A stretch of 64,000 nucleotides of DNA from a virus, in IMG/VR virus record IMGVR_UViG_3300031951_000015, positions 62,001 through 126,000 of that record. The stretch is one strand, 5' to 3'. Under the pieces are notes generated by a model. It made no database searches. It was not told where the DNA came from and was given only the letters and a program-made list of their open reading frames with translations. This document shows, in pieces, positions 20,194 to 29,538 of this stretch (position 1 is the first letter of the stretch; each line of letters opens with the position of its first letter). Both the position numbers and the translations under genes were made by a program.

Positions 20194-21651
20194 TTATTTA
20201 TGAATGGCGTTTATAATTTCTTTATGTGATATTCTTTGATTTTCTAATTTTTTAATTTTCGTATATTCATAATGTTCTTTTGCAAATTCTAAAATCTGTT
20301 GTTTATTTCTTTTTGAATTTAAGAAATCTCGAATTGCATTTTTATCAAACATATTTAATCCGTTTGAAACTTGAATAAAATTATCAAGTGACCAAACAAA
20401 TTTGGTTGAATTATTGCCTAGATTTTTAGCATCTAAAAACTCGTACTTACATTTTTCCTCAAAATCTCTGACCCATTCAGTTTTATTTTCAGTCATGTAT
20501 TTCCAAAAGTCAGAATCAAATCTATTTGTATTATAATGAAGACAAATAAAATCCACGATGACTTTATAAGCATTTAGGTTTATTTCATTAAATTTTTTTC
20601 TATTATATTCCAAGAAGGTTAAATTTGAATTTAAAGAAATAAAATCTTTAATTTGATTTATGATAATGTGAATACCAGTAGACTCTAGCGGTTCTACAAA
20701 TCCACTTGAAAGACCAATTGCTAAACAATTTCCAACCCATGCTTGATCATAATATCCAGGTTTATAGTAAATAATTTTGTCTGTTTGCAATCTAACTCCA
20801 AATTTTTCTAATAGCCAACAATTATATTTTGTTTTTGCTTCTTCATCTGAAGTAAATCTGGAAGAATAAAGATATCCAGTTCCATATCGATTTCCAATTG
20901 GTATCTGCCATATCCATCCATTATCTGTCGCTTCTGCTAACGTGTAAGATGGCACTTCTTCAAAATCATATGGAATTTGTTGTGGAATTGCTCTGTCAAT
21001 TGGCAAATAATCTGTAATGTCATTCCACTTTACCTTTAAGTTTTTAATTAACATAGAGTTAAATCCAGAGGCATCAATATAAAAATCTGCTTTTACATTT
21101 CCACTATTTTTGAAATCTATACTTTCAATTTGATTATTTTCAATATTAATTTTTTCAGCAATATCATCAATAAAATCAATCTCGTTATTCATCTTTCCAA
21201 AAATATAATTTGAAAATTCTTGTGTATCAATGTGCAGCGCATGACTATAATCAAAAGTTTTTTTTGGTAATGTAGATGTTGCTTCATTATAAAGTAGACC
21301 ACCATTATAGCAATCGTTTAGAATAGAATAGATTGCACTTGATTGATCCGACTCCCCCCAAAAAGAAACTTCTTTAAATCCATGAAAATATTCTGTATTG
21401 GGAATCCAATTTTTAAAATTTATTCCTAATTTTACACTTACATTTAAGTCTCTAATTAAATCTTCAGTTTTTATTCCCAGAGAATTAAGGAATAAATGAA
21501 TAATTGGTGTAGTACTTTCACCAACACCTATATTTTTTCTTTTGGCATCAAAATATAGAGAAACTTGAACTTTATCTCCCCAATATTTTTTAATCATTGA
21601 TGCTGCAATCAATCCAGAGGTTCCTGCCCCCAAAACAATAAATTTTTTCAT
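20194..21651 (-). CDS. Flavin-dependent halogenase (tryptophan halogenase family)
   Basis: A 485-aa protein. It has an FAD-binding GAGTSG (residues 8-13), GVGES (42-46), a Lys at 74 in KLGINF matching the catalytic Lys of PrnA-type halogenases, the halogenase signature WIWQIP (246-251), and EPLEST (320-325) with a Glu matching the second catalytic residue. All hallmarks for activity are present and the length is normal. A flavin reductase partner is not seen nearby. It lies between two fibre genes, so halogenation of a virion protein or a host-surface component is a possibility; the substrate is unknown. Confidence 0.85.
   Translation of the reverse strand: MKKFIVLGAGTSGLIAASMIKKYWGDKVQVSLYFDAKRKNIGVGESTTPIIHLFLNSLGIKTEDLIRDLNVSVKLGINFKNWIPNTEYFHGFKEVSFWGESDQSSAIYSILNDCYNGGLLYNEATSTLPKKTFDYSHALHIDTQEFSNYIFGKMNNEIDFIDDIAEKINIENNQIESIDFKNSGNVKADFYIDASGFNSMLIKNLKVKWNDITDYLPIDRAIPQQIPYDFEEVPSYTLAEATDNGWIWQIPIGNRYGTGYLYSSRFTSDEEAKTKYNCWLLEKFGVRLQTDKIIYYKPGYYDQAWVGNCLAIGLSSGFVEPLESTGIHIIINQIKDFISLNSNLTFLEYNRKKFNEINLNAYKVIVDFICLHYNTNRFDSDFWKYMTENKTEWVRDFEEKCKYEFLDAKNLGNNSTKFVWSLDNFIQVSNGLNMFDKNAIRDFLNSKRNKQQILEFAKEHYEYTKIKKLENQRISHKEIINAIHK
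20196..20203 (-). promoter_or_regulatory. Late-type promoter
   Basis: CATAAATA on the minus strand, 19 bp before the glycine-rich fibre gene start, inside the 3' end of the halogenase gene. Confidence 0.5.
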
Positions 21652-29046: not shown

Positions 29047-29328
29047 TAGGAGCGGCGAGACTTGAACTCGCATAGCCGAAGCCGACGGATTTTCTTACCA
29101 CTACGACTTTCGCCGCCTCATAGAGTTTGTGGTCTGGACTATACCTTCACCATATCTTGTGATTTAGGTGCTCCCCGTCTAGTCTCTACACCTTCATCTT
29201 TCGATGCTTGGCTCGGTATTGCCATTTTACAGGTTTCACCGAATTTGAGGAGTTACACTCATGAGGTTTCCCAAATGAGGCTCAATTTTACATAAGTCCG
29301 TTGTGTCTACCAATTCCACCACGCTCCC
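29047..29328 (-). tRNA. tRNA-Leu(UAA) interrupted by a group I intron
   Basis: Exon 1 (29294-29328, 35 nt) and exon 2 (29047-29093, 47 nt) join to an 82-nt tRNA. The acceptor stem is GGGAGCG/CGCTCCT with a G-U closing pair and discriminator A. The D-stem is GTG/CAC, the anticodon stem ACGGA/TCCGT, and the loop CTTAAAA gives anticodon UAA. A 3-bp variable arm is capped by TTCG, and the T-arm is GCGAG/CTCGC with loop TTCAAGT. CCA is not encoded. The intron splits the anticodon after U34, the position used in cyanobacterial tRNA-Leu(UAA). UUA is a favoured codon in such AT-rich genomes. Confidence 0.93.
29094..29293 (-). ncRNA. Group I intron in tRNA-Leu(UAA) (IC3-like)
   Basis: A 200-nt intron. 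The 5' exon ends CUU and can pair with an internal guide GAG (about 29281-29283), giving the U-G pair of P1 at the splice site. The last intron base is G. Core elements are readable on the minus strand: P (AATTCGGTGAAACCT, 29232-29246), Q (AATACCGAGCCAAGC, 29206-29220), R (GAGACTAGACGG, 29175-29186) and S (AAGGTATAGTCC, 29136-29147). R GACTA pairs with S TAGTC as P7. No endonuclease ORF lies inside. The sequence style matches the ancient cyanobacterial tRNA-Leu intron, though it is shorter. Confidence 0.92.
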
Positions 29329-29341
29329 GTGATGTGAGACC

Positions 29342-29370
29342 ATTATAACTCAAAGAGTTGTAGTGGTCAA
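29342..29370 (-). promoter_or_regulatory. Early promoter of tRNA-Leu
   Basis: The minus strand has TTGACC, a 17-nt spacer and TATAAT (29342-29347), ending 13 bp before the tRNA-Leu 5' end. It fills the gap between the CAU tRNA and tRNA-Leu. Confidence 0.75.
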
Positions 29371-29371
29371 G

Positions 29372-29445
29372 TGCAGGTTGTGGGGATCGAACCCACCTTA
29401 GCCGAATTATGAGTTCGGTGCTTTCAACCAGAGAGCTAAACCTGC
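29372..29445 (-). tRNA. tRNA with CAU anticodon (Met or lysidine-type Ile)
   Basis: A 74-nt tRNA: acceptor GCAGGTT/AACCTGC with discriminator A, anticodon stem CCGAA/TTCGG with loop CTCATAA (anticodon CAU), T-arm GTGGG/CCCAC with loop TTCGATC. G1-C72 pairing rules out an initiator. Elongator Met and Ile2 (CAU made AUA-specific by lysidine) cannot be told apart by eye. Confidence 0.9.
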
Positions 29446-29449
29446 ACGA

Positions 29450-29521
29450 TGGGAACAGCGGGAGTTGAACCCGCGCTAAGCACTTATAAGGTGCCCGCTC
29501 TAACCATTAAGCTATGCTCCC
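29450..29521 (-). tRNA. tRNA-Ile(UAU)
   Basis: A 72-nt tRNA: acceptor GGGAGCA/TGTTCCC (one G-U) with discriminator A, D-stem GCT/AGC, anticodon stem GGCAC/GTGCT with loop CTTATAA (anticodon UAU, reading AUA), T-arm GCGGG/CCCGC with loop TTCAACT. Ile(UAU) is rare in bacteria, which normally read AUA with a modified CAU tRNA. Only 4 nt separate it from the CAU tRNA. Confidence 0.88.
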
Positions 29522-29538
29522 ATAAAAAACTCAGAGTA

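Follow-up and report, generated by a model that had tools for sequence, protein, structure and literature searches.

In the window, the whole 64-kb stretch of DNA that was analysed (positions 62001-126000 of a 174,667-bp viral record), the minus strand at 29328-29047 carries a tRNA-Leu(UAA) gene that is interrupted between U34 and A35 by a group I intron. We suggest, with a probability of roughly 0.77, that this is a mobile group I intron that circulates among phage tRNA(UAA) genes and is spliced to yield tRNA-Leu. At least 115 phage contigs and one cultured jumbo phage have an intron at this same trnL site, though phage introns were said to avoid tRNA genes.

The interrupted tRNA-Leu(UAA) gene

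Judged by its genes, the virus is a psbA/psbD-bearing cyanomyovirus and kin of the freshwater Synechococcus phage S-SRM01 (Kyanoviridae): psbA and psbD are both open, T4-like tail genes are present, and its baseplate tail-tube cap (74%), halogenase (59%) and a structural protein (50%) have their best matches in S-SRM01. The halogenase, at 20194-21651 on the minus strand of the window, is of the flavin-dependent (tryptophan) type and 59% identical to that of S-SRM01. The tRNA locus is organized as follows:

29448-29522, minus strand: neighbouring tRNA-Ile(UAU), uninterrupted (ARAGORN default mode and Rfam)
29371-29445, minus strand: neighbouring tRNA-Met(CAU), uninterrupted (ARAGORN default mode and Rfam)
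29342-29370, minus strand: sigma-70-like promoter upstream of the tRNA, TTGACC-17-TATAAT, 11 of 12 consensus positions
29294-29328, minus strand: 5' exon of tRNA-Leu(UAA), 35 nt, last base U34 (ARAGORN intron mode and fold of the spliced exons)
29094-29293, minus strand: group I intron, 200 nt, at the U34/A35 site, terminal G at 29094 (RF00028 and helix covariation)
29047-29093, minus strand: 3' exon of tRNA-Leu(UAA), 47 nt, A35 to A73, CCA not encoded (ARAGORN intron mode and fold of the spliced exons)

With introns allowed, ARAGORN calls a tRNA-Leu(taa) with a 200-nt intron at position 35-36, and the joined exons alone fold as a class II tRNA-Leu(taa) of 82 nt with a long variable arm, a UAA anticodon and A73. 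The first-pass annotation of this DNA had described a complete tRNA-Leu(UAA) around a 200-nt insert at the cyanobacterial and plastid trnL position; gene, insertion site and boundaries prove exact, and the strand, which had gone unstated, is the minus strand. It had also argued that splicing is needed for a working tRNA, in agreement with our finding that the insert interrupts the anticodon loop and that only the joined exons give tRNA-Leu(UAA). In its default mode, without introns, ARAGORN missed this tRNA-Leu and called only the adjoining tRNA-Met and tRNA-Ile, an example of how functional phage tRNAs escape standard tRNA callers that are run without allowing introns.

The 5' exon is identical or near-identical among the cyanophage relatives. 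The promoter that had been placed directly upstream is borne out by the sigma-70-like element at 29370-29342 on the same strand, and the same promoter type occurs at 50 of 65 homologous loci, intron present or absent; it is plausible that it drives early synthesis. Given that UUA is the most frequent leucine codon of the phage (37%, from 20 window ORFs), a tRNA-Leu(UAA) product would be useful to it.

Fold of the intron

The covariance search that had been proposed as a check on the group I assignment matched RF00028 at 29303-29117 over the full length of the model (positions 1-253) with 58.5 bits (E=2.9e-12 for the 64-kb window), above the curated score of 50, and this is the sole group I hit across the record. 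The Rfam gathering cut-off missed genuine relatives, e.g. L003-L005, and relatives were therefore collected by sequence pattern and tRNA pairing instead. Part of the core, like the GAAAATC junction, is preset by the search pattern, and such preset features were excluded from the evidence. Helices P1-P9b, with 51 core pairs, were assigned by hand on the window sequence, in which the following elements were recognized:

29281-29283, minus strand: internal guide sequence GAG, pairing with exon CUU (P1, 3 bp, U-G at the 5' splice site), in 59 of 59 phage introns
29267-29270, minus strand: GAAA tetraloop capping P2, the second GAAA (sequence)
29238-29243, minus strand: 5' strand of P4, partner 29212-29217 (pair counts)
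29180-29184, minus strand: 5' strand of P7, GACUA, partner 29137-29141, four pairs invariant and the fifth covarying A-U/U-A (pair counts)
29108-29111, minus strand: GAAA tetraloop of P9b (sequence), P9b being compensatory at all 4 pairs

In the window intron each of the 51 core pairs is standard. In the set of 59 phage introns pairing holds in 92.9% of cells and falls to 30-43% if the partners are shifted by 1-3 bases; compensatory changes occur at 36 of the 51 pairs. The 15 cyanophage introns by themselves keep 98.8% of the pairs, with 14 pairs compensatory. The covariation supports the P3-P8 and P4-P6 core with its pseudoknotted P3/P7. The P1 U-G pair and the terminal G, both noticed in the first reading, hold as well: the U-G pair is found in all 59 phage introns and the G lies at 29094. 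The GAG of P1 was not a requirement of the search pattern, whereas the terminal G was. Free-energy folding by itself is mildly unusual (z -1.85); that plain energy folding misses the group I fold is expected from the pseudoknot, and covariation was used instead. The size, the GAAA tetraloops and the tRNA context suggest that the intron is of the minimal tRNA type, IC3-like, and it would be expected to undergo guanosine-initiated self-splicing.

Relatives among phages

The core together with the GAAAATC junction was found in 108 IMG/VR stretches, and adding flank searches brought the number of IMG/VR contigs with the intron in tRNA-Leu(UAA) to at least 115. The IMG/VR set comprises 92 distinct introns of 197-858 nt, 22 of which exceed 450 nt and 14 of which reside in class I tRNAs; identical copies are present in several contigs. 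IMG/VR contigs are predictions, and the general claim is backed by the two huge phages LR756501 and LR756511, which also carry the intron, and by the cultured jumbo Agrobacterium phage Atu_ph07, in which a group I intron of 278 nt splits tRNA-Leu(UAA) at the identical position (MF403008.1; L364 953-1314). The intron-bearing locus of Atu_ph07 is annotated as a hypothetical protein only, and tRNA introns are unmentioned in the Atu_ph07 and huge-phage papers.

Related introns were also observed in other phage tRNAs by ARAGORN in intron mode. The 18 tRNA-Arg(UCU) calls lead, with few or single calls for Phe, Thr, Lys, Met, Leu(CAA) and Asn, the rarer isotypes being putative; the phage contigs concerned include L033, which apparently has introns in two of its tRNAs, L056, L386, L389 and L397. 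In Gordonia phage Daredevil (NC_048021.1; L363 1039-1350) ARAGORN in intron mode reports a tRNA-Lys(UUU) split by an intron of 238 nt, the core of which resembles that of the window intron. A closely similar core lies between two capsid-gene pieces of Pelagibacter phage HTVC120P (MH598807.1; L362 1188-1360), indicating that the intron type enters phage protein genes too.

Evidence for mobility among phage tRNA genes

At the cyanophage locus with the flank AAATAAATATAAGATATGGGAAA, 14 intron-plus contigs (4 of them read from extracted sequences) stand against 39 intron-less contigs. The exons of intron-plus L085 and intron-less L156 are 95.3% identical and those of intron-plus L045 and intron-less L141 94.5% identical; in the latter pair the differences are confined to the anticodon stem, i.e. 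they adjoin the insertion site, as insertion with co-conversion would leave them. Thus, intron-plus and intron-less alleles with near-identical exons coexist, as for a mobile intron. Moreover, introns 92-97% identical to that of the window sit in class I tRNAs with exons just 55-64% identical, and on the intron tree a single clade of class I carriers is rejected (p-AU 0.0029), with at least 4 switches. The first-pass annotation had held that a phage copy implies capture from the host or mobility between host and phage; our data support mobility, but among phage tRNA genes, and speak against the host as source (see below).

The counterpart site in S-SRM01, from tRNA-Met to the flank AAATAAATATAAGATATGGGAAA, contains an uninterrupted class I tRNA(UAA) of 73 nt with a short variable arm. 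The flanks of the tRNA gene in the window and in S-SRM01 match right to the tRNA ends, and the tRNA genes themselves are non-orthologous. Many freshwater cyanophages (L015 8605-8677, L137, L045, L083) have a tRNA(UAA) of this kind, 73 nt long and with a short variable arm, which differs from normal bacterial tRNA-Leu.

HNH ORFs are encoded within longer related introns. No endonuclease gene was found in or beside the window intron, and the single HNH match in the genome is located ~58 kb from the intron, near psbA/psbD. A free-standing HNH gene that is 48% identical to the HNH within a huge-phage intron lies beside some cyanophage tRNA(UAA) alleles. Its equal occurrence at three intron-plus and three intron-less alleles counts against a role in homing and leaves such a role, acting in trans, no more than possible. 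Tentatively, the free-standing HNH and the intron might form a trans ('collaborative') homing pair in which (i) the HNH cleaves intron-less tRNA genes of co-infecting phages in their anticodon region, (ii) the intron repairs these genes and protects its owner, (iii) transfer of this kind took the intron from one to the other of two non-orthologous tRNA types, and (iv) tRNA introns have a main reservoir in the wider phage virosphere (tRNA-Arg, Phe, Lys, Thr and others).

Alternatively, the intron could be an old resident of the phage locus around which recombination swapped the tRNA halves, the intron-less alleles being losses. The cyanophage introns do form one group (support 98/90), they are short and lack an internal endonuclease, and the conservation of the flanks of the tRNA gene up to its ends in S-SRM01 and the window indicates that swaps of whole tRNAs occur. 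However, the class I and class II tRNAs that carry the intron are intermingled on its tree (p-AU 0.0029), such that this reading needs repeated replacement of both exons around one intron, and the L045/L141 differences fit insertion with co-conversion. Accordingly, we regard long residence as improbable and favor a mobile intron.

Origin of the phage intron

A third explanation, and the one anticipated by the first-pass annotation, is that the phage acquired an intron-containing tRNA-Leu(UAA) from a cyanobacterium. The insertion site and the general intron type are those of cyanobacterial trnL, and the phage has further cyanobacterial genes, psbA and psbD. Cellular relatives of the intron are widespread in alpha- and gamma-proteobacteria, acidobacteria, Bacteroidota and cyanobacteria, among the matches listed. 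A quick tree of 199 rows was poorly optimised, with constrained trees scoring better, and only a careful tree of 63 rows, including 17 cyanobacterial chromosomal introns, was therefore used. In this tree the 17 cyanobacterial introns constitute a 100/100 clade without the window intron, which groups with 10 cyanophage introns (98/90). A joint clade of the cyanophage introns and three Thermosynechococcus-like rows is rejected (p-AU 0.00027); rows L338, L339 and L341 group with Thermosynechococcus. The deep branches are weakly resolved, and descent shared with the cyanobacterial intron to the exclusion of the proteobacterial ones was not recovered in the 63-row tree. By identity the window intron is closest to those of other cyanophages (88-97%), followed by that of Rhizobium sp. 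WYCCWR10014 (78.8%), the closest cellular intron among the matches listed, and reaches 66.2% with the best of the pattern-sampled cyanobacterial introns.

The gene for the alpha-carboxysome protein CsoS2 was present in one of 34 sampled cyanobacterial genomes (1.6-2.3 Mb), and the host survey was done in the family of this alpha-cyanobacterium, the likely host family. Here, tRNA-Leu(UAA) is uninterrupted in 51 of 61 genomes and a group I intron was detected in 0 of 61, with filters strict enough that weak hits could have been dropped. The exons are up to 83% identical to uninterrupted cyanophage tRNA-Leu genes in isolates (S-RIM32; 221 records with the first word Synechococcus matched) and up to 86% in IMG/VR, and 79% and 82% identical to cellular tRNA-Leu of cyanobacteria and Rhizobium, respectively; they are nearer to phage than to cyanobacterial tRNA-Leu. 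On the intron tree, the host survey and the exon comparison, capture from the host was rejected, and we consider it very unlikely.

Three further observations concern the distribution of such introns in cells. L343, L344 and L294 (Myxacorys and a relative) have a tRNA-Leu(UAA) intron of proteobacterial type outside the main cyanobacterial intron clade, likely by lateral replacement. A contig of L270, a Tatlockia MAG (Legionellaceae), carries a typical cyanobacterial trnL intron, probably as contamination. Finally, matches to the intron core occur in 1,269 plasmid records (Escherichia, Klebsiella, Salmonella, Acinetobacter and others). For instance, the tRNA-Leu(UAA) of a Klebsiella plasmid (NZ_CP039793.1; L002 2998-3300) is complete and is interrupted at the U34/A35 site by a group I intron of 213 nt; it is unannotated in the PLSDB table, a table with no RNA genes at all.

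The least credible explanation is a dead intron in a tRNA pseudogene: a host tRNA-Leu could suffice and folding by minimum free energy alone is unremarkable (z -1.85), but the 51 core pairs are intact, the cyanophage group retains its pairs with compensatory changes, the exons still make a perfect tRNA, identical copies recur in several contigs, and UUA is the top leucine codon of the phage.

Proposed mechanism

For the mobile, spliced intron that we favor, we propose that the interrupted tRNA would be transcribed from the phage's own promoter and that the anticodon stem of the exons together with the 3-bp P1 would position the 5' splice site. Attack by guanosine after U34 would be followed by exon ligation at the terminal G, the two transesterifications freeing the intron, and host enzymes would trim the tRNA and add CCA to give a tRNA reading UUA/UUG. 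The function, charging and timing of the spliced tRNA are likewise inferred. At the DNA level, the intron would spread among phage tRNA(UAA) genes that share the target CUU|AAAA within GACTTAAAATC, presumably by homing, with recombination probably begun by HNH homing endonucleases encoded inside longer related introns or, possibly, by free-standing genes nearby. The copy in the window may have lost its own endonuclease or may never have had one.

Comparison with known systems

According to a 2014 review, all phage introns known by then were in protein-coding genes, despite the many tRNA genes of phages (PMC3984707). In 2017 a 'tRNA-Stop' of Vibrio phage pVa5 was claimed to be interrupted, with a warning by the authors of a possible artefact; like the window locus it would be an interrupted phage tRNA, but the insert is ~2.5 kb and no group I intron was claimed (PMC5746245). 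A search confined to open-access literature turned up no report of trnL introns in phages, and priority is therefore not claimed. The phage introns exist as alleles with and without the insert, in two tRNA backgrounds and in forms that bear an endonuclease, and thereby offer a plausible means for the lateral transfer that has long been suspected of tRNA introns.

The trnL intron is the textbook ancient intron, inherited mostly vertically; the cyanobacterial and plastid trnL(UAA) group I intron is reportedly the subject of Kuhsel 1990, Xu 1990 and Paquin 1997, as cited in PMC3984707. The window intron is like it in gene, U34|A35 site, short P1 with a U-G pair, size and RF00028 architecture. It is unlike it in belonging to a separate, phage-borne lineage with at most 66% identity, and the two differ in signature: P7 is AGACUC/GAGUC, followed by AAUUCUC, in cyanobacterial introns and AGACUA/UAGUC, with AGACCAC, in the phage family. 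The cyanobacterial introns sampled are 217-312 nt and ORF-less, whereas some relatives in the phage family have HNH genes. The cellular introns nearest to the phage family (Rhizobium sp. WYCCWR10014, among the matches listed) share the site and the P7/P9 signature; they are chromosomal or plasmid-borne and have no special tie to the cyanophage clade in the 63-row tree. The introns of phage protein genes (td, nrdB, psbA of S-PM2-like phages, terminase, DNA polymerase) are likewise phage-borne group I introns, some with HNH genes, but interrupt protein genes, whereas the window intron interrupts a tRNA. The cyanobacterial tRNA-fMet intron with I-Ssp6803I likewise belongs to group I, lies in an anticodon loop and has a history of mobility, and differs from the phage trnL intron in the tRNA that it occupies and in the family of its endonuclease.
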